From contig JAKSOT010000001.1 in the NCBI GenBank assembly GCA_024405455.1, positions 1 through 64,000 on the forward strand: a DNA stretch of 64,000 bases, in the 5' to 3' direction. Source of the stretch: Akkermansia sp. (GTDB taxonomy: Bacteria; Verrucomicrobiota; Verrucomicrobiia; Verrucomicrobiales; Akkermansiaceae). The notes below the pieces were generated by a model, which ran no database searches, was not told the origin of the DNA, and saw nothing but the letters and a program-made list of their open reading frames with translations. The translations under genes and the position numbers were made by a program. Positions within the stretch are counted from its first letter, which is position 1, and each line of letters begins with the position of its first letter. Below are positions 5,392 to 58,337 of the stretch, in pieces.

Positions 5392-5465
5392 GCGCCGGTA
5401 GCTCAATTGGATAGAGCATCTGACTACGGATCAGAAGGTTCGGGGTTCGAATCCCTGCCGGCGTG
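5392..5465 (+). tRNA. tRNA-Arg (anticodon ACG)
   Basis: A full cloverleaf folds. Acceptor GCGCCGG (5392-5398) pairs with CCGGCGT (5458-5464). The D arm is GCTC/GAGC, the anticodon arm TCTGA/TCAGA with loop CTACGGA (anticodon ACG at 5426-5428), and the T arm CGGGG/CCCTG with loop TTCGAAT. Discriminator G5465; CCA is not encoded (CTA follows). The ACG anticodon is presumably edited to ICG by TadA. Confidence 0.95.
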
Positions 5466-5533
5466 CTACACTTGCCCTGCCCTACGACCCTGCAAACGCG
5501 TCCTCTTCGGCCCGGCTTGTGCACATACAACAT

Positions 5534-5891
5534 GGGGGCGTCTTTGGTTTCGACTGAACACTCGAGATGCCGGCTGCATGTGGAGGTTGAACGGCTGGCC
5601 TCCTTAAAAGCCGCTCAAAACATTAAGTGCCTATTCCAATAACGAATACGCCATGGCTGCGTAACTAACGCACCCAGACCCAAGCCCCGACGCCTACTAG
5701 GGGTGCGGGTCCTAGCTCAGTAGGCTGGCCTGCGGCGGGGATACCGCGCCGTTGGCGACATCCACAGGTATCTGGCTAGGTGCAAGGCCGACGCAGAGCG
5801 GAGCACCGGCGAGAGCAGCAATCTGCGTCTGAACATGGAGATGCTTGCATCAACGGTGTCCAGGACAGGGGTTCGACCCCCCTCGCCTCCA
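5534..5891 (+). ncRNA. ssrA: tmRNA (ssrA)
   Basis: The tRNA-like ends pair: 5' GGGGGCG (5534-5540) with 3' CGCCTCC (5884-5890), discriminator A5891. The start has GTCTTTGGTTTCGACTGAAC and the end CAGGGGTTCGACCCCCCTCGC, both hallmarks of tmRNA. The tag frame is read at 5629-5664 as AYSNNEYAMAA followed by TAA; resumption at GCC 5629 is inferred from the A at -4. CCA is not encoded. The product rescues stalled ribosomes with SmpB and marks the nascent peptide for proteolysis. Confidence 0.95.
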
Positions 5892-5900
5892 CTATGAAGC

Positions 5901-10662: not shown

Positions 10663-10923
10663 AAAACCGGGTGTCTCCCAAAGATTTTTTCCGCTTCGCA
10701 AGGAGCGGGAATCAGCTGCGCATTGCATTGGAAAATACGTGAAATGGAAGTCTCGGAAGCCCTCCACCATTCGCATTTTTTTGTCGAGTTGTTGCCTCGC
10801 CAACGCCCAAATTCGGGAAATTTTGCAAGTCTAACCCTCCCTGCGGGGATGAAAGCCGCCGACGGCCCCGTTCAGGGCGCGCCATAAGGCGCGGTAAGGC
10901 GGTTTTGTAAATTCTTTTGTTTT
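10663..10923. repeat. Intergenic region with partial copy of the hairpin repeat
   Basis: No gene is seen. Positions about 10833-10905 hold modules shared with the dispersed repeat (AGCCGCCGACGGCCCC, AGGGCGCGCC ATAA GGCGCGGTAAGGCGG), a degenerate or partial copy. Confidence 0.5.
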
Positions 10924-11211
10924 TCAAAGGCCGAATTCCGCCAACTGCTGCCATTCCACGAAACTCTGCACATACGCCTCGGCTATCTCACGGTGCGTGC
11001 GGTGGTCCTTCACCAGGCAACCCATGGATGCCACACACCACCAAGTCTTGCGGGCATCCTCCGCAGCCTCCGGGTTGATCTTCTCTATTTCCGCGATAAT
11101 GGACAACGTCCGCTCAGATGGAGGAAACGGCGGCTGGTAGTCCCCATTCTGCCTTTTCTCCAAAATCGAGAGCTTGTAGCGTGTCAACGGTTCTTTCTTC
11201 TTCTTTTTCAT
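10924..11211 (-). CDS. Small hypothetical protein
   Basis: 95 residues, starting MKKKKKEPLTRYKLSILEK and rich in Lys and Glu at the N-terminus, with a helical part PSERTLSIIAEIEKINPEAAEDARKTWWCVASMGCLVKDHRTHREIAEAYVQSF. The composition looks like a natural soluble protein rather than a shadow frame, and no competing gene overlaps it. Family and function are not recognised. It stands alone at the border of the accessory island. Confidence 0.55.
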   Translation of the reverse strand: MKKKKKEPLTRYKLSILEKRQNGDYQPPFPPSERTLSIIAEIEKINPEAAEDARKTWWCVASMGCLVKDHRTHREIAEAYVQSFVEWQQLAEFGL

Positions 11212-11340
11212 AGCCTTGTATTCATCGGGTGTCGGGCGGGTAGTCGCTCAACTCCCCCATCCTACGCCATGCTGGCCCCGGCGTCAACCCCCAATCCGCT
11301 TTTTTTCCTCGCAGAGCTTCATCCGCAGGATGATTTCTTC

Positions 11341-11451
11341 ATCAAAGCCCCTCCCGCCCCAAGCGGGGAGGGGCCTTTGATATACTCCCTTTAGGGAGTA
11401 TTATTTCTTCATTGCATATGGCATGGCATATGCGTTGCCATATGGCATGCC
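11341..11451. repeat. Cluster of palindromes
   Basis: The region 11212-11815 has no convincing gene. It contains a strong inverted repeat (11341-11381, ATCAAAG...CTTTGAT around GCCCCTCCC), a second perfect one (11382-11401, ATACTCCC TTTA GGGAGTAT), and a run of overlapping CATATGGCATG palindromes (about 11414-11451). The first may be a terminator; the others are unexplained. Confidence 0.6.
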
Positions 11452-11815
11452 ATTAACACCCGCTGCAACAAGTGTTTCTGCAGCTCCGTAGCCCCGGAGT
11501 TCCGGAGGGGCGAAGCCCCGGCGCAGCGGGATTTCTTTACCAAGTCCCGCAAAGACGGGCACACACGGCAGCAACCGCCGCCATACTTCCCCAAAATCGC
11601 ACACAGGTGGTGTCTTTCCATGTACGCCATCATACGGCATACTTTCTTCCACGCAAACCCCAAATCGCAACCCGCCTAACCCTACCGCCACAGGGCGGCC
11701 TCTCTCGACGACCGCGCTATCCTCTTCCATGAATCAGAGCGAATTAGTTTGCCTTGAATCCAAAAGCAGGCATGTTAAAAGAGTGCAAGATAAGTGATCC
11801 AGGGAACAAGGTCCT

Positions 11816-50575: not shown

Positions 50576-50608
50576 CGGCGGCTGCACTGGGCATTTAAAT
50601 CAACACGG

Positions 50609-50635
50609 GGCCGCCCGGCGTTCCGCCGGGCGGCC
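50609..50635 (+). terminator. Terminator of ugd
   Basis: GGCCGCCCGGCG (50609-50620), loop TTC, CGCCGGGCGGCC (50624-50635), perfect 12-bp stem; no T-run follows. Confidence 0.65.
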
Positions 50636-50664
50636 TCCCCCTACACATATATATGCAAATAATC

Positions 50665-50692
50665 TTGCAATACGCACGGGAAAGGCTACAAT
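50665..50692 (+). promoter_or_regulatory. Promoter of the GrpE/C39/dynamin/Hsp70 operon
   Basis: -35 TTGCAA (50665-50670), 16-bp spacer, -10 TACAAT (50687-50692), ATG at 50701 only 8 nt further. The upstream ATATATATGCAAATAAT stretch (50647-50663) could act as an UP element. Confidence 0.7.
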
Positions 50693-50700
50693 AAGCTCGT

Positions 50701-51402
50701 ATGAGTATGCCCAGCTCCCCACCGATTGCCCTCATGCTCTATACGTCTCTCATTATCCTTTTGGCGATGGCCGCCTATATTGTACACATGCACAAAATTA
50801 CCAAGCGGTTGCAGACCACGGCAAGGGAGAATGGCAAGGTCCCCGCCCCGTTTGGCACATGGACAGCGCCGCCGCACGCGCCGTTCCGCCCCCTGCCGGG
50901 CCTTGGCGGGGCCGGGGCGGCTCCCGGACACGCGACAGGGCCGGGAGGGGGAGGCGCAGGCGCCCTCCGGGGGCTTGTTGCCCGCATAGGGGAGGAGGGG
51001 CTCTCCGGGCTGTTGAGCTCCCGCCTGGATGACATGGGGGAGGAGGCGGAGGGAGTGCCGCAGGCCGTTGCAAGGCTCGGGCTCTTGGATGAGATACGCA
51101 TTCTCTCACGCCATGCCGGGGGTGACGACGCCGAGACGCTTCAAGAGCTTGCCGCGGCCCTCCGCAGCCAGCTGGAAGAAATGGGAGCGGAGGTAATCGA
51201 CGACGATGCCTGGGCTCCGTCACGCCAGAAGGCGGTTGAAGTGCTGTGCGATTTGCCTGCGGGCTCGGCGCCCGTGGTGGCGGGGAAAGTGGCCTCCGGT
51301 CTTGTATTCCAGGGCCGGATGTACCGCAAGCAAGCCGTCATCCTCCGCACGGCCCCCCATTATTCACCTATTCCAACCCAACAAGGAGACAATGTACATT
51401 GA
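50701..51402 (+). CDS. Membrane-anchored GrpE-like protein
   Basis: 233 residues. One membrane helix (about 8-29, PIALMLYTSLIILLAMAAYIV), a low-complexity Gly/Pro linker (about 42-85), a helical part, and a C-terminal stretch VIDDDAWAPSRQKAVEVLCDL...GKVASGLVFQGRMYRKQAVILRTA (about 163-222) with the pattern of the GrpE beta-wing domain. GrpE is the nucleotide exchange factor of DnaK. An unusual Hsp70 is encoded in the same operon, so this is probably its dedicated partner, tethered to the membrane. The GrpE assignment is by pattern and context, not strong similarity. It overlaps the next gene by 11 nt. Confidence 0.6.
   Translation: MSMPSSPPIALMLYTSLIILLAMAAYIVHMHKITKRLQTTARENGKVPAPFGTWTAPPHAPFRPLPGLGGAGAAPGHATGPGGGGAGALRGLVARIGEEGLSGLLSSRLDDMGEEAEGVPQAVARLGLLDEIRILSRHAGGDDAETLQELAAALRSQLEEMGAEVIDDDAWAPSRQKAVEVLCDLPAGSAPVVAGKVASGLVFQGRMYRKQAVILRTAPHYSPIPTQQGDNVH
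51383..51388 (+). promoter_or_regulatory. Shine-Dalgarno of the C39-type peptidase gene
   Basis: AAGGAG lies 3 nt before ATG 51392, one of the few clear ribosome-binding sites in the window. It decides the start in an ORF that is open further upstream, and allows internal initiation inside the end of the GrpE-like gene. Confidence 0.7.
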
Positions 51403-52165
51403 CATGGATATGACAATAGGCTCCCCCGAAAACCAACAGGCATTTTGGGAGCTGCAAAGCTATTCCGACGACTGCGCCATCATGGCCCAGGTGAGCCTCT
51501 TGCACCAGTTCGGCGTGAACCTCACGGAAAACCAGGCCATATTCGAGTGCTCGTCCCACGGTTGGTACACGCCCGGCGGCGGCACACTCCCCGGCGATGT
51601 GGGCAACCTCTTGGATTTGCACGGCGTCAGCACCCACGATGTACACTACGCCACGGTGGCGGACCTGGCCAGAGAACTCCAGGCGGGGCACGGCATCATA
51701 GTGGGCGTGAACTCAGCCGAGCTGTGGAATTCCGGCCCCCTCTCCGATTTGAAGCACTGGCTGTGCAAGGCTTTCGGGCTGGACAACTCCACCTTCAATC
51801 CCGCGGACCATGCGGTGGTGGTTACCGGCATTGACGTCTCCGACCCGGGAAATCCGCACGTGATCATCAACGACTCCGGCCATCCCGACGGCCAGGGGCA
51901 CCCATACCCGCTGGACAAGTTCCTGGACGCATGGGAGAATTCGAATTTCTCCTACACCGCCACAAACGCCGCCATACCGCACGATACGGCCACCATGGGT
52001 GACCTGGACCTGCTGGACCTCAGCAAATGGCTGGCGGGGAGTCTAGCCGGCGGAGCGGTCCTGGCCGAGACGGGAGACATATTCAGCGCCGCCGCCGCGA
52101 GCGTGACCGCCGCCAACCTGATGGAGGAATGGTTCTCCAACCCCGCCGCCGTGCGCGACATCTAA
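51392..52165 (+). CDS. Papain-like (C39-type) cysteine peptidase
   Basis: 257 residues. The order and spacing of Cys28 (QSYSDDCAIMAQVSLL), His140 (PADHAVVVTGIDV) and Asn160/Asp161 (VIINDSGHPDG), followed by PLDKFLDAWENSNF, match C39-like peptidases. The C-terminus (about 205-257) has a weakly hydrophobic helix. No signal peptide, so it acts in the cytoplasm, unlike bacteriocin-processing C39 domains fused to ABC transporters. It sits between the GrpE-like and dynamin genes (24-bp gap to the latter) and may be an effector or processing enzyme of the system. Confidence 0.75.
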   Translation: MYIDMDMTIGSPENQQAFWELQSYSDDCAIMAQVSLLHQFGVNLTENQAIFECSSHGWYTPGGGTLPGDVGNLLDLHGVSTHDVHYATVADLARELQAGHGIIVGVNSAELWNSGPLSDLKHWLCKAFGLDNSTFNPADHAVVVTGIDVSDPGNPHVIINDSGHPDGQGHPYPLDKFLDAWENSNFSYTATNAAIPHDTATMGDLDLLDLSKWLAGSLAGGAVLAETGDIFSAAAASVTAANLMEEWFSNPAAVRDI

Positions 52166-52189
52166 CACCCCATACCACACAGCACCATT

Positions 52190-54061
52190 ATGCAAAAACT
52201 AGCAGCAGCACTCACCCTGGCCGCCGAGCTGGACGCCCAGATGACCGGCATCCCCGTCACGGATGATTTCCGCAAGAAGATGGACCTCCTGGGTGCAGGC
52301 ATCTTCCGCCTCGTCGTCATGGGGGAGATCAAGAAGGGGAAGTCCTCCTTCATCAACGCCTTGCTGGGCTACAAGGAGCTGGTGCCCACCAGCTCGAACG
52401 TGGCCACCTCCACCATCTTCAAGATCCACTACGGCAAGGAGGTGGCCTACAAGGTCTTTTTCACCGTCCAGAGCGGCAAGGGGGAACAGGCCATCTCCGC
52501 GGCGGACCTCCCCCTGTTCGGCACGGAGGACGGCAACCCCGGCAATGAGAAACAGGTGGACTTCATCGAGGTCTCCTGCCCCTCTCCCCTGCTCAAGACG
52601 GGCGTGGTCATCATTGACACCCCCGGGCTGGGCGGCACATTCCGCGAGCACAAGAAAATCACATACCAGTATGTGCCCAAGGCAGATGCCGTCTTCTTTG
52701 TGACGGACAGCGTGGAATCCCCCATAGGGGCATTGGAGATAGAATACTTGAAAGACATACAGGGCATCACCCGGCACGTGTATTATGTCCAGACCAAAAC
52801 TGCGGCGGTGGACGAGGAAGCCGCCAACGCGCGGCGAGAGAACAACCTGGGCATCCTATCGCGCGCCCTAGGCGTTTCCCCCGGCGAGACGCCCTATTTC
52901 ATGCTCGATTCCGAGGTTCGGCACATGGCGGCGCAGCAATCGAGCACGGACATGCTCCAGCTCAGCGGGTACCCGGCGCTGCTCGCCTTTGTCAACAAGA
53001 GGCTGCTGCCGGCCAAGCGCCAGATACTGGCGAGGAAAGCCGTAACGGCCGCCACCCCCACCCTGGAGCACCTGATTTCCCAAGTGGAGGAAAAGGAGCA
53101 GATGCTGAATGCGGACACGGCGGACAGCCGCAACAGGGCCCAGGCGGAGATACAGAGGGCCCAGGACGAGCTCACCCACTGGGAAACGGAGGAAAAGGAC
53201 GTGCTGGTGCGCAGCATTTCCAAGGGGCTGGACGACAACGTGCGCGCGGCGATGGCCTTTCTCAGCCAGTGCCAGCCCTACGGCAGCATTCAAATGGAAA
53301 TGGAAAACGCCATCAACCGTGCATCAACCAGAGAGGAACTGATGCACACCATGCGGGTCATCAGCAACAACCTGCCGGGGTTCGCGGCACAGTGCATGCA
53401 GGCCGTAGCCGCCCAGCTCCAGGCAGGCACCCAGCAGGTGCTCGGGACGTGCTGCCCGGAGATAACGGCGCTCTCCGGGGAGGTGAACACAGGCGTTCCC
53501 GCCATCAACAATTTCAGGATAGAGCGCATGCTCCGGGACATGGCGAACGATGGGGGGCGGGAGTTTGCAAAGCTCCGGACGGGCATGTACGGGGGCATGG
53601 CGGGCATGGCCATGGCATCTGTCGTGGGTGGAGTTATCGGCAGCGTCGTCCCCGTTGTCGGCACCTTCATCGGCAGTTCCATCGGCATGGCTATCGCGGG
53701 CATGTGGGGAAGCAGCCAAGCCTGCATGCTCCAGGAACAGCAGGAACTCCAGAGCCTCCGCTCCCAGGCCAGCGCAGCCCTTTCCACCACCATCGGGGAT
53801 ATGTACTCCAAGATGCAGGCGAACATCAACCAGCTGAATGCGGATGTCAAGTACCTGGTGCAGGATGCCCTGGCCAACACCCTGCGGCAAAGGTCCAGGG
53901 ATTTGCAGTCGGCCATCGCGGATTTGCAGGAACGCGCGCAGATGACCGGAGAAGCCCTCAGGCAGCGCAAGGAGGGGCTCGCCGCCCTCAGGCAGCAGCT
54001 GGCCTCCATCAAGCGCACCATTGCGGCGTATATCCCCGTACAATCAAATCCCGTTCCATGA
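52190..54061 (+). CDS. Dynamin-like GTPase 1
   Basis: 623 residues. GTPase motifs: G1 GEIKKGKSS (about 44-52), G2 region SNVATST, G3 DTPG (Asp143) in VVIIDTPGLGG, probable G4 QTKTAAVD. A helical stalk follows, then a strongly hydrophobic Gly-rich stretch GMYGGMAGMAMASVVGGVIGSVVPVVGTFIGSSIGM (about 464-505), the likely membrane paddle, and a C-terminal coiled coil. This is the layout of bacterial dynamin-like proteins that bind or remodel membranes. The stop overlaps the next ATG (ATGA), coupling it to GTPase 2, so the pair probably forms a hetero-complex. Confidence 0.88.
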   Translation: MQKLAAALTLAAELDAQMTGIPVTDDFRKKMDLLGAGIFRLVVMGEIKKGKSSFINALLGYKELVPTSSNVATSTIFKIHYGKEVAYKVFFTVQSGKGEQAISAADLPLFGTEDGNPGNEKQVDFIEVSCPSPLLKTGVVIIDTPGLGGTFREHKKITYQYVPKADAVFFVTDSVESPIGALEIEYLKDIQGITRHVYYVQTKTAAVDEEAANARRENNLGILSRALGVSPGETPYFMLDSEVRHMAAQQSSTDMLQLSGYPALLAFVNKRLLPAKRQILARKAVTAATPTLEHLISQVEEKEQMLNADTADSRNRAQAEIQRAQDELTHWETEEKDVLVRSISKGLDDNVRAAMAFLSQCQPYGSIQMEMENAINRASTREELMHTMRVISNNLPGFAAQCMQAVAAQLQAGTQQVLGTCCPEITALSGEVNTGVPAINNFRIERMLRDMANDGGREFAKLRTGMYGGMAGMAMASVVGGVIGSVVPVVGTFIGSSIGMAIAGMWGSSQACMLQEQQELQSLRSQASAALSTTIGDMYSKMQANINQLNADVKYLVQDALANTLRQRSRDLQSAIADLQERAQMTGEALRQRKEGLAALRQQLASIKRTIAAYIPVQSNPVP

Positions 54062-55686
54062 ACCAAGCCCCGGAAAGCGGCAGCACCCTGGAATCCCGGC
54101 GCCTCCAGTCGGAATACAGCTCCGCCGTGCGCACGATAGCCGACAGCCTTCAGGAGTTTGCCGAAGGCCTGAACCCGGCGGTCACGCGTTTCATGCAAAT
54201 GTCCGCGGCGCTGCGGGGGCACGTTTCGGATGCCATAGAGCCGTTCAACGTGGCGGTGTTCGGGCGCATGAAAACCGGCAAGAGCACCCTGATCAACGCG
54301 CTGGTCGGCCGGCGCCTGGCCATCACCGGCGTGAACGAGGCCACGGCCACCATCAACCGTCTCACCTACGCCACCGGCGGGGAGCAGCTGGCAACATTCA
54401 AGGCCCATTGGAGGGAAGCCAGCCCGGAAACATTCCCCCTGGAAAAACTGGCCACGGAGTGGACGGGGACGGAGCCGGACGTGCTGGAGCGCATACGCCA
54501 GGTGAAATACCTGGAGCTGTTTGCCGACGCGGAATGGCTGCGCGACGTGCAGGTGACGGACACCCCCGGCACCGGCAGCACAACCTGCGAGCACGAGGCC
54601 ATAGCCCAGCAGTTCATCAACGGCAGGGAGGCCGACGCCCTGGTCTATGTCTTCCCCCCGGTGGCGCGCGAGAAGGACGAGGACGACCTGCAAAGCTTCC
54701 GCAGGAGCTGCCTGCCCGGCTCAGACCCGTACAACAGCGTGGCCGTGATGCACAAGTGGGACGAGACCTACTGGGCCAGCGGGGGAGATTGGGCGGACAT
54801 CGAGGCCAAGGCGGCCCGGCTGTACAGCCACATGACGGGCCTGGTGTCATGCGTGGTTCCGGTGAGCGGCCCCCTGGCCCTGGCGGCGGAAATGGACGGG
54901 GGCGACTTCTGGGACAATCTCTTGGCGCTCCTGAGCACCTTCCGGGACGAGGGGCAACTGACGGCGGCGCTGGGCATGGACCGGCTCTGGAAGATGAACC
55001 CCGCGCAAGGCGCCCTGTATGAGCAGGCCAAGCAGAAATACGGCATGCCCTGGGCCAGCTTCCGGGTTATGCTCAGGGAAATCTACAGGAGCCAGTGCAA
55101 AGACGGGGAGAGCGCGCGGAACACCATTGCCGAATTGGGGGGCATCCGCCGTATGCGGGAAATCCTCGACAAGCAGTTTTTTAAGAAATCCGCGGTAATC
55201 CGCCTCAACCGCACCCGGTCGCGCGTGCAAGGGGATGTGGACAACCTCCGCGATGCCATGGAGCGGGCGGGCAAGGATGTGGAGGATGAAGCCGGACACC
55301 TGCGGGCGATAACGGAATGCCTGGAGGACGCGCGCATGCGCAGCTGGGTGGAGAACCGCATCCACAAGATGAATGCGGAACTGGACAATATGAACCGCGC
55401 CTTTATCGAGATAGACCGCACCATCATAGCAACGGGAGGAATGGCCAATCAAAAATCCGACACGGTGGCACTCGTCCCCTGGTTGGCAGCCCACTCCCGG
55501 CGCTTTTCCTCACCGCAGCAAGTCGCCCTGCTGCAGGACCTGTTAAGGTTCGGCAGCAAAATCCCGGACGACCAGGTGGAGGGCGTGTACCGCACCGTCA
55601 GCACCCTGGCCATGGATATGGACCCGGACACGCGCGCCATGGCCCAAAAGCTTCAGGATATCCTCATGCAATCCCTTCAAGATTGA
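54058..55686 (+). CDS. Dynamin-like GTPase 2
   Basis: 542 residues from ATG 54058, overlapping the preceding stop by 4 nt. G1 GRMKTGKST (69-77), G2 region NEATATIN, G3 DTPGTGST (Asp168), G4 MHKWDE (about 231). The rest is helical with coiled coil (RTRSRVQGDVDNLRDAMERAGKDVEDEAGHL, about 382-412); no hydrophobic paddle is seen, unlike its partner. Tandem pairs of unequal dynamin-like proteins occur in bacterial membrane-guarding systems. The Hsp70-like gene follows after 4 bp. Confidence 0.87.
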   Translation: MNQAPESGSTLESRRLQSEYSSAVRTIADSLQEFAEGLNPAVTRFMQMSAALRGHVSDAIEPFNVAVFGRMKTGKSTLINALVGRRLAITGVNEATATINRLTYATGGEQLATFKAHWREASPETFPLEKLATEWTGTEPDVLERIRQVKYLELFADAEWLRDVQVTDTPGTGSTTCEHEAIAQQFINGREADALVYVFPPVAREKDEDDLQSFRRSCLPGSDPYNSVAVMHKWDETYWASGGDWADIEAKAARLYSHMTGLVSCVVPVSGPLALAAEMDGGDFWDNLLALLSTFRDEGQLTAALGMDRLWKMNPAQGALYEQAKQKYGMPWASFRVMLREIYRSQCKDGESARNTIAELGGIRRMREILDKQFFKKSAVIRLNRTRSRVQGDVDNLRDAMERAGKDVEDEAGHLRAITECLEDARMRSWVENRIHKMNAELDNMNRAFIEIDRTIIATGGMANQKSDTVALVPWLAAHSRRFSSPQQVALLQDLLRFGSKIPDDQVEGVYRTVSTLAMDMDPDTRAMAQKLQDILMQSLQD

Positions 55687-55690
55687 CGGC

Positions 55691-58276
55691 ATGACAACGA
55701 TAGGCATAGATTTCGGCACCAGCAAGACCATGGCGGCCTGGGTGAACCCCAAGACCGGCCACCACGAGGTGATCAATTTGGGGGACGAGCACAACTACAT
55801 TCCCACCACCGTGTTTATAGGCGGGGACGGGAACATGTTTTTCGGCGACGAGGCGGACGACCTCGCCGTCGAGGCGCCCGACCGCTACGCGCGCGGCTTC
55901 AAGGCGAAACTGGGTTCAGACGCGCCCGCCCTGCTGTGCTTCTCCGGGGGCAAGCCCAGCACCTACACCGCCCGGCAGCTCACCGCCGCCTACCTGCGGC
56001 ATGTGCGGCAGCTGTGCGAGGCGCGCGCCTGTTTCGGCACCGTCGATGCGGCGGTCATCACCCGCCCGGTCGACTTTTCCCCCGCCCAGGTGGAGGAACT
56101 CCGCATGGCGGCGGAGGAAGCCGGGTTCCGGGAGATTTCCCTTGTCACCGAGCCGGAGGCCGCGGGCTACGCCTTCTGCCTGCTCAGCCCGGAGAACGCC
56201 TTCCAGGGCAGCGCCCTGATTGTGGACTGGGGCGGCGGCACGCTGGACATGTCCATAGTGGAACGCTCCGGAGACAAGGTGAAGACCGACAGGACGCGGG
56301 TTTCCGGCGAAAACACGTTGGGGGGCGAACAGTTTGACACGTACCTGTGGCAACACGTCACCACCATTCTCTCCGGGAAAGGCACGGACATCAACGCGCA
56401 GCCCAAGGACGTCATCCACCAGGCGCAGGTGCAGGTCAGAAAGGCCAAGGAGGCCCTCTCCAAGCGGGAGAGCAAGGAGCTGCGCCTATCCACGCCCTCC
56501 GGCGCCACGCCGCCCGTTACCGTGAGGCGGGAGGATTTCGAGGCCCTGATCGGCAAGGATATCCAGAGGGCGGCGGGAATGGCGCGCCAGCTGGTGCAGC
56601 AAACCAGGCAAGGCGGGGGCAACCCTGAAATGCTCCTGCTGGTGGGCGGCACCAGCCTCATTCCGCTGGTTCGCAGCCAAATGGAAAGCCAAACCGGCCT
56701 GCCCACCCACCAGTGGCAGTACACCCGCGAGGCCGTGGCCATAGGCGCCGCCCTGTGGCTTGGCGGCCGAAACGGGAGCGGCGCACCCTCCCCGGGCCCG
56801 GCTGCAACCGGGGAAGGCCAGGCCGGTTCGCTGTACGGACAGTACCGCAAGCACGGGGATGAATGCCTGACCACCACATGCCCGGTCGACCTGGTTACCG
56901 CCGCCCAGTGGTACGCGGGCGGGCATGAGGCGGGAGACCTGAACTGCACGTACGAGCTGATTGCATGCTACCTGGAAGGCAAGGGCGTGCCGAGGTCCTA
57001 CAGGTACGCCGCGCAACTGACCCAATACCTGCTGGAGATGAACTGTCCGCTCGGGTACGTTCCCTTGGGGCTCATGTACAGGGACGGCCACGGCGTTGCC
57101 CTGGATGTGAAGCAAGGTGCAAATTACCTTGAAGCCGCTCTCCGGGATTGCGCGCAGCCCCTCCCGGGCATCGATGACGATGTCAGATACCTGGCGCTTG
57201 CCGACGCGGCGAGGGGACTTGACCGACTCGACGAAGCACAGTATTGGCTACGCCTGTACGTTCAGGATGAGAGGGCGGTTTACCCATGGGGATTGGCGGC
57301 CAACTCCGTCATGGAATCATCCAGCGAGCCCACGCCCGAAGAGGAAGAGTACGTCAGGGACGCAGTGATGCAGGGGATCCGTGAGAACGACCCCTTTGCC
57401 ATGTTTATCAAGGCCGCTCTCACGGGAGGCGAGGGCAACATGTTCCCGGGCAGCAACGATGACCGGGTTCAGCTCCTGCGCGAGGCCGCGCGCCGCTTTC
57501 CGATACCCGCCGTTTTCCAGGCGCTTGCCGTGTATTCAGGCGATGAGCAGGTTGAAGAACGCATGTGGGCAACCGCCCATCTGGGGATGAGCTGTCTCCG
57601 GGCGGAAGACGAGTTGAATTGCCAGCTCTCCGTTCACGCCAACACCTGCAGCGCATATTACAAGGTGTATGAGAGCAGTGTGATCCAAGCGCTCATGCAG
57701 AGCAACAGGGTGAAAGACTTCGTCACCTCTCCACTCTCTCCCAGAATTGTCATCGCCAACATGAACGGCTTCCCCATTTGGGCATTCAACTTGAGGGTTT
57801 GCATAAGGAAACTGGAATACGACAACACCTTCCATATTGACGCAACGATCCAACCGGGCGAGCAGCTGGACATATTGCTTGAGGATTACGGCATACCCCT
57901 GGCCGACCAAATGATGTTGGAGATAGAGTCCAATGGCAAGCGCAGCAGCATCGATTATGCGGACGTACCGCTCATGAGCGTTCGGGATTACATCGATGAA
58001 GACGGCACCCAGCCCCCACTCTTCATGGCATGGGTGTATGATTCCTGTGGCGGCTACGTAGTCAACGTTGTCAACATGGGAGAGGAAACAATCACCAACG
58101 TGTGCGTCCGCAAGCGGTCGGGCTGGAACCCCAACCCGATAAACCTGGCGCCGGGCGAAGCGTTTTCATGGGGGTGGCACGAGTTCCCCGACTCCCGCGG
58201 GCTCGCGGAAAACGAGCTCTTCTACCTGACCTGCGATGGGTACCTGCCCGTAGCCGCGCAAATTCTCACAACCTAG
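55691..58276 (+). CDS. Hsp70-Sel1 fusion protein
   Basis: 861 residues. Residues 1-360 are an Hsp70 nucleotide-binding domain: phosphate-1 TIGIDFGTSKTMAAW, phosphate-2 LIVDWGGGTLDMSIV (about 175-190), adenosine motif LLLVGGTSLIPLVRSQM (about 315-330). The usual beta-sandwich substrate domain and lid are absent. Instead there are Sel1-like repeats (about 380-500: AAQWYAGGHEAGDLNCTYELIACYLEGKGVPRSYRYAAQLTQYLL) and an unrecognised, beta-rich C-terminus (about 640-861). It is the last gene of the operon and probably the ATP-driven switch controlling the dynamins or peptidase, with the GrpE-like protein as exchange factor. Confidence 0.88.
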   Translation: MTTIGIDFGTSKTMAAWVNPKTGHHEVINLGDEHNYIPTTVFIGGDGNMFFGDEADDLAVEAPDRYARGFKAKLGSDAPALLCFSGGKPSTYTARQLTAAYLRHVRQLCEARACFGTVDAAVITRPVDFSPAQVEELRMAAEEAGFREISLVTEPEAAGYAFCLLSPENAFQGSALIVDWGGGTLDMSIVERSGDKVKTDRTRVSGENTLGGEQFDTYLWQHVTTILSGKGTDINAQPKDVIHQAQVQVRKAKEALSKRESKELRLSTPSGATPPVTVRREDFEALIGKDIQRAAGMARQLVQQTRQGGGNPEMLLLVGGTSLIPLVRSQMESQTGLPTHQWQYTREAVAIGAALWLGGRNGSGAPSPGPAATGEGQAGSLYGQYRKHGDECLTTTCPVDLVTAAQWYAGGHEAGDLNCTYELIACYLEGKGVPRSYRYAAQLTQYLLEMNCPLGYVPLGLMYRDGHGVALDVKQGANYLEAALRDCAQPLPGIDDDVRYLALADAARGLDRLDEAQYWLRLYVQDERAVYPWGLAANSVMESSSEPTPEEEEYVRDAVMQGIRENDPFAMFIKAALTGGEGNMFPGSNDDRVQLLREAARRFPIPAVFQALAVYSGDEQVEERMWATAHLGMSCLRAEDELNCQLSVHANTCSAYYKVYESSVIQALMQSNRVKDFVTSPLSPRIVIANMNGFPIWAFNLRVCIRKLEYDNTFHIDATIQPGEQLDILLEDYGIPLADQMMLEIESNGKRSSIDYADVPLMSVRDYIDEDGTQPPLFMAWVYDSCGGYVVNVVNMGEETITNVCVRKRSGWNPNPINLAPGEAFSWGWHEFPDSRGLAENELFYLTCDGYLPVAAQILTT

Positions 58277-58337
58277 GAGAATGGGAACAGCGCCGGACTA
58301 GGCACGCCGCAAAGGGGGCAACGCGCGCTCTTTTCCG

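Follow-up and report, generated by a model that had tools for sequence, protein, structure and literature searches.

Bacterial dynamins, which assemble on membranes with GTP, are usually found as pairs, and for most of them it is not known what triggers them in the cell. Hsp70 chaperones cycle with ATP, GrpE ejects the ADP and DnaJ-type domains bind the clients, while C39 enzymes cleave peptides. In this report we describe a five-gene operon that joins a GrpE-like protein, a C39-type peptidase, two dynamin-like GTPases (genes 3 and 4, here DRP1 and DRP2) and an Hsp70 ATPase. It lies in a 64,000-nucleotide stretch of DNA from Akkermansia sp. (assembly GCA_024405455.1), hereafter the window, which is part of contig C1 of a 2.35 Mb draft genome with Akkermansia MAGs as its nearest relatives among the named genomes. 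We read the five genes as one dedicated, horizontally moving, membrane-acting system under a chaperone switch, which would most likely be directed against phages or other envelope attackers, and we put the probability of this reading at about 0.5.

The module is akin to dynamin-pair operons and to chaperone-coupled conflict systems, with an unusual breadth. Dynamin-DnaK pairs were noted in cyanobacteria in 2018 (PMC5827413), where the ‘chaperone group’ has, as here, a dynamin-like gene and then a conserved gene with a DnaK (Hsp70) domain. Unlike here, the accessible parts of that paper make no mention of C39 peptidases or GrpE-like proteins, of a second dynamin, of Hsp70 tails that can be exchanged or of a spread beyond cyanobacteria. 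In the predicted conflict systems of the DO-GTPase/GAP1-N2 type (PMC7159879), paired GTPases occur together with HSP70, GrpE and DnaJ/TPR fusions. The peptide-binding domain is absent from some of these HSP70s, and the systems share with our locus a constant switch with variable partners. However, their GTPases belong to another TRAFAC family and come with GAP1, and dynamins and C39 peptidases are not mentioned. Membership was rejected since all five genes are otherwise assigned and none is left for GAP1. LeoABC likewise places two dynamin-like proteins in one operon, and DRP1 matches LeoBC (E 8.4e-25 in PADLOC). Yet the window has no split LeoB/LeoC, and the Leo locus descriptions, in their accessible parts, hold no peptidase, Hsp70 or GrpE partner; we rejected this membership too, as the operon has two full-length dynamins and not leoC/leoB halves upstream of leoA. 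The Campylobacter Cj-DLP1/2 operon (PMC6104087) combines a heterotypic dynamin pair with a Sel1-type (HcpA-like) protein, but no Hsp70, GrpE or C39 gene is described in it; for Nostoc BDLP2, the same source reports a DnaJ domain thought to bind DnaK. Finally, mycobacterial IniA, described as a membrane-fission dynamin, is the closest solved dynamin to DRP1 by sequence (6j72, phmmer E 3.3e-20), and it is likened here on the dynamin sequence alone. In the open-access literature (a scope with subscription papers and preprints mostly outside it) we found no description of the five-part module, which agrees with an earlier, sequence-only reading of the window that knew of no described system with all five parts.

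The operon occupies positions 50701-58276 of the + strand, and the five genes and their spacings of -11, +24, -4 and +4 bp (from open reading frame coordinates) are correct to the base in that reading:

50701..51402, + strand, gene 1, GrpE-like protein with a predicted membrane anchor, 233 aa
51392..52165, + strand, gene 2, predicted C39/papain-like cysteine peptidase, 257 aa
52190..54061, + strand, gene 3, dynamin-like GTPase 1 (DRP1), 623 aa
54058..55686, + strand, gene 4, dynamin-like GTPase 2 (DRP2), 542 aa
55691..58276, + strand, gene 5, Hsp70 ATPase with a variable C-terminal region, 861 aa

The order GrpE-C39-DRP1-DRP2-Hsp70 is kept in the window and in twelve further loci (L034-L045; L plus a number denotes an extracted locus and G plus a number a genome of the related set). 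Variants of it are found in L046-L049, and the same order recurs in the cross-phylum loci L055, L063 and L065. L055 is labelled Bacteroidales and is unusually like the window (62% for C39); its contig may have been misbinned. Of 114 related genomes, 17 show a strong match to DRP1 and 16 a match to the C39 profile; 15 have both, so that 15 of the 16 C39-positive relatives carry a matching DRP1. Three genomes depart from this: in G025 the C39 gene lies at the end of a contig, in G062 the contig begins at DRP1, and G029 has a variant. When 84,980 species genomes were scanned with the C39 profile, 80 loci came up, from Verrucomicrobiota, Planctomycetota, Bacteroidota, Clostridia, Streptomyces, Cyanobacteria and Desulfosarcina. 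The C39 gene is adjoined by dynamin genes in 65 of these (by at least two in 59), with Hsp70 too in 36, and in 3 of the remaining 15 loci dynamins and Hsp70 lie farther upstream. GrpE heads are also present in Clostridia, Bacteroidales and Rhodococcus. The sequence-only reading had named the absence of a conserved neighbourhood in relatives as the finding that would speak against it; the neighbourhood is there. The housekeeping genes on the immediate flanks could be taken to favour a chance neighbourhood of five unrelated genes, but we give that next to no credence because gene order is conserved in the twelve further loci and a matching core is present in several phyla.

A second lineage of the system occurs in Clostridia, Bacteroidota and Cyanobacteria. 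In 28 loci, mostly without Hsp70, a conserved protein of about 180 aa (with an end close to LLxxLxEPSLxPIYKVLDxDFYNKYL) lies between C39 and two or three dynamins:

L191:9627-10190, about 180-aa protein between C39 and the first dynamin; also in L090, L096, L100-L111, L113-L117, L120-L126 and L130

The strongest functional clue is the pattern of a constant motor and variable recognition in gene 5. Pfam HSP70 matches it at E 3.5e-34 over the ATPase part only (profile positions 103-370 of 599), and the protein has both the phosphate motifs (IGIDFGTS and DWGGGT) and the adenosine motif (VGGTS) of an actin-like ATPase. The Hsp70 ATPase extends from residue 1 to about 370 and is followed by a 490-residue variable region, which starts with one weak, partial Sel1 repeat (Pfam, E 0.0027) and has no domain assigned in the remainder. 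No canonical C-terminal Hsp70 substrate-binding domain was found with the HSP70 profile or in a domain comparison of the tails, and since the profile stops at 370 of 599 we describe gene 5 as being without one. The name ‘Hsp70-Sel1’ proposed earlier therefore holds for the ATPase, by motifs and profile, while the Sel1 part is weak and is one of many interchangeable tails.

Across the Akkermansia-type loci, 348 of 378 pairwise comparisons of the Hsp70 ATPase parts show similarity, as against 51 of 406 for the C-termini. The tails carry Sel1, ankyrin, ribosomal-L12-type, LGFP, zinc-ribbon and DnaJ_C domains; in other phyla, TPR, FHA, WG and FGE-sulfatase domains occur as well. For example, over residues 1-396 the Hsp70s of L037 and L043 share 88.6% identity, and beyond these they differ in frame over about 240 residues that hold the DnaJ_C client-binding domain. 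The comparison of L035 with L037 is different: C39 and the dynamins are 88-93% identical, the Hsp70 ATPases just 58%, and the tails are arranged differently. Several loci have two to four tandem Hsp70 genes with different tails. Because the ATPase is constant while the C-terminus is interchangeable, these sequences suggest that the tail is a swappable recognition module. One further arrangement is seen at L037:7352-10957 (+), where a single 1202-aa protein holds the Hsp70 ATPase together with DnaJ C-terminal, zinc-finger and Sel1 repeat regions.

Gene 1 is a divergent GrpE-like protein by its predicted fold and its profile, and a predicted nucleotide exchange factor. Its layout comprises an N-terminal transmembrane helix (about residues 8-30; mean hydropathy 2.31 over 9-27), a variable linker, a helical region (84-160) and a GrpE-like beta head (163-216). 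The AF2 model (pLDDT 83) has the hydrophobic N-terminal helix, a linker of low confidence and a well-predicted helical-plus-beta domain. With Foldseek, the top eleven matches are all GrpE (9a81 at E 1.6e-4, 1dkg at E 3.1e-4, probability 1.00). Residues 116-220 superpose on GrpE 1dkg_A with a VIA Z of 10.1 (103 residues, 2.9 Å), although unrelated helical bundles score up to Z 10 elsewhere on the model, and for this reason we give weight to the beta head and to the E-values from Foldseek. In an hhalign comparison with the housekeeping GrpE of the relatives, gene 1 scores 34.8 (an E of 5.8e-5 for one comparison), against 19.8 for the best of 100 column shuffles. The equivalents from Clostridia, Bacteroidales and a Rhodococcus plasmid are matched to GrpE with a probability of 95.6 and to the Akkermansia gene 1 family with one of 95.9. 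Gene 1 itself has no Pfam match, the best of 18 homologues (E 0.12) stays below the Pfam GrpE cut-off and a sequence-profile comparison with the PDB was negative; we therefore call the protein GrpE-like and not a Pfam GrpE member. Despite these negative profiles, hhalign and the predicted fold led us to reject the idea that ‘GrpE-like’ was an over-reading, and the label given from the sequence stands. G004, G007, G009, G015 and G017 each have a second weak GrpE match (E about 1e-11 to 1e-12) besides the housekeeping GrpE.

Gene 2 is very probably an active cysteine peptidase, as predicted from its conserved active site and its modelled fold, in keeping with the C39-type assignment made earlier. 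Pfam Peptidase_C39_2 matches at E 1.5e-4, with 22.8 bits just under the curated cut-off of 24. In an alignment of 14 homologues, Q22, C28 and H140 are invariant and D161 is nearly so, which gives the Gln/Cys/His/Asp active site of a papain-like fold; a helical tail follows at the C-terminus. The model (pLDDT 64) resembles staphopain, the C39-like peptidase 3erv and the C39 peptidase domains of ComA/PCAT1, with a TM score to the target of up to 0.82 among these matches. The C39 sequence profile had no match in the PDB, although the predicted fold did. In L038 (G015), at about 10820-11570, the C39 gene is apparently frame-disrupted past residue 187, with the rest in another frame with stops; the remaining genes of that locus look open despite this.

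Genes 3 and 4 are, as claimed from the sequence, two dynamin-like GTPases, and they are two different proteins. Both match Dynamin_N in Pfam (DRP1 at E 1.3e-20, DRP2 at E 1.9e-17) and carry the G1 and G3 motifs: a P-loop GEIKKGKS (45-52) and DTPG (143-146) in DRP1, and a P-loop GRMKTGKS (69-76), DTPG (168-171) and also HKWD (232-235) in DRP2. After IniA, the nearest solved structure to DRP1 by phmmer is BDLP1 (2j68, E 7.9e-15). DRP1 has a glycine-rich hydrophobic stretch at about 470-505, a putative membrane-inserting paddle, and 16 of 17 homologues have a hydrophobic stretch in the same place. A hydropathy scan of DRP2, whose alignment holds 18 homologues, found no paddle-like stretch of the DRP1 type. 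This asymmetry is fitting because bacterial dynamins are known as heterotypic pairs (PMC6104087). Judging by their family, DRP1 and DRP2 would remodel membranes in a GTP-dependent manner. A separate cluster (L050-L053), seen in other Akkermansia genomes and an order-level relative, consists of two or three genes for dynamin-like proteins of about 650 aa and has neither Hsp70 nor C39.

The site of the operon bears on whether the module moves. The features around it are as follows:

50580..58322, no strand, extent of the cassette from blastn breakpoints; an unrelated 4.4 kb occupies the same site in the relative G003
50609..50635, no strand, 12-bp perfect inverted repeat, located after the UDP-glucose dehydrogenase gene and before the operon, a terminator-like stem without a T run, by pattern match only
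50665..50692, + strand, sigma-70-like promoter candidate TTGCAA-16-TACAAT just 5' of the first ATG, by pattern match only (9/12)

The 5' neighbour of the operon is a UDP-glucose dehydrogenase gene and the 3' neighbour a NAD(P)HX-epimerase/dehydratase-like gene (NnrED); farther downstream come genes that we take to be ribH, nusB and ftsY. In G003, the closest relative, the flanks are 92-95% identical, with the flanking genes kept at 91-98% identity (NnrED 91%, RibH 97%, UDP-glucose dehydrogenase 98%). There, 4.4 kb of other genes (L185:3579-8007), presumably SPFH-like, NfeD-like, ankyrin/transmembrane and amidase-like, fill the slot from UDP-glucose dehydrogenase to NnrED. The breakpoints are sharp (50579/58323 in the window against 8008/3578 in L185), and the slot may be a hot spot for membrane-associated cassettes. 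G003 has its own copy of the system on another contig, with DRP1 64% and C39 73% identical to the window. Since the slot is swapped, the flanks are near-identical and the copy elsewhere has diverged, the sequences indicate that the cassette was gained, lost or moved independently of its flanks. The earlier picture of a cassette between unrelated housekeeping genes is thus confirmed by G003; of the claim that all five genes lie behind one promoter, a sigma-70-like candidate is present, by pattern match only. Directly upstream of the system in G003, a gene (L034:1743-3047) matches the candidate defence family PDC-S01 (E 4e-103).

Beyond this slot, the system is patchy, with C39 in 16 of 114 relatives and in 12 of 388 genomes of the phylum, and it is found on the Anabaena plasmid pANA01 and on many large Rhodococcus plasmids. 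Of the plasmids with a C39 match, 20 of 28 are predicted to be mobilizable. Prescottella equi plasmids gave matches too; the closer look was at the related plasmids of Rhodococcus and Anabaena. These copies would suit a mobile-element accessory, that is, a module that aids the establishment or transfer of a plasmid or integrative element, or the exclusion of rivals, with the chromosomal copies as remnants. We consider this improbable: no integrase, tRNA target or flanking direct repeats were seen at the window site, and most copies sit among housekeeping genes on chromosomal contigs.

The sequence-only reading had proposed a chaperone-controlled anti-phage system. Its conserved, mobile five-part module is supported; its anti-phage or abortive role is not, either by a PADLOC system match or by neighbour enrichment. 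Defence remains the favoured role because of the mobility, the patchiness, the diversification of the tails and the precedents. Specifically, phage lysis is delayed by DynA (PMC8844932), bNACHT25 uses DnaJ to sense phage (PMC12169576), and the DO-GTPase conflict systems offer a third case. Several results weigh against it. PADLOC, which the earlier reading had advised, has no model for the system and matched no described multi-gene system to the whole locus; it gave only single-gene similarities to LeoA/LeoBC (weak, in the dynamin domains) and PDC-M61B. Nor are the flanks enriched for PADLOC hits over random loci of the same genomes, among the matches listed: at E 1e-10 there were at least 80 flanking proteins (54 families) against at least 77 random ones (93 families), with models that are unspecific. 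A defence-island context is therefore not supported; the flanking genes are mostly housekeeping. A search of IMG/VR viral contigs with the C39 profile found no relative, and phage records gave one weak dynamin match. The divergence of the system also correlates with that of the host (Spearman 0.63 over 28 pairs, which are not independent; there are conspicuous exceptions, such as G050-G024 at 72% against 32%), so vertical inheritance contributes as well. Moreover, only about half of the homologues of the GrpE-like protein have a clear N-terminal anchor, and the known roles of other bacterial dynamins are in maintenance.

This last point leads to a rival account, in which the module serves envelope stress and membrane maintenance: Hsp70 and GrpE would feed damaged membrane proteins to C39, and the dynamins would seal the membrane or shed vesicles, with no immune role. 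Known bacterial dynamin pairs, which act in the surveillance of membranes, in the release of vesicles or in drug tolerance (DynA, LeoABC, IniA), fit such a role, as do the Cj-DLP1/2 operon with its HcpA-like Sel1-type protein and the cyanobacterial dynamin-DnaK pair, which the accessible parts of PMC5827413 interpret as protein sorting in membrane remodelling. Maintenance genes, however, are not expected to be this patchy (16/114), to swap slots or to exchange recognition domains this fast, and we regard the account as rather unlikely.

Under the preferred reading of a mobile, chaperone-switched membrane system, the Hsp70 tail would act as an adaptor that binds a foreign or damaged protein, or a signal of a damaged envelope. 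The ATP/ADP cycling of Hsp70, reset by the membrane-anchored GrpE-like protein, would switch the complex next to the membrane, and the C39 peptidase would process the target or one of the partners. The dynamin pair would then assemble on the inner membrane, which it would seal, fuse or disrupt, and the outcome would be a protected membrane or a sacrificed cell. The narrower form, a chaperone-gated dynamin system working as a widespread bacterial immune module, with interchangeable sensors fused to Hsp70, a gate of GrpE and peptidase, and the heterotypic dynamin pair as membrane effector, we hold only tentatively, at somewhat less than even odds.

The conserved link of paired dynamins to an Hsp70/GrpE switch, exchangeable tails and a peptidase offers a concrete candidate for what controls bacterial dynamins. 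If the role is defence, sensing based on protein quality control would feed a membrane-remodelling effector, a design reminiscent of eukaryotic immune GTPases. The combination of a constant switch with variable tails also provides a family of natural recognition domains for study. Elsewhere in the window, at 5392-5892, a tRNA-Arg lies near a tmRNA gene with the tag AYSNNEYAMAA.

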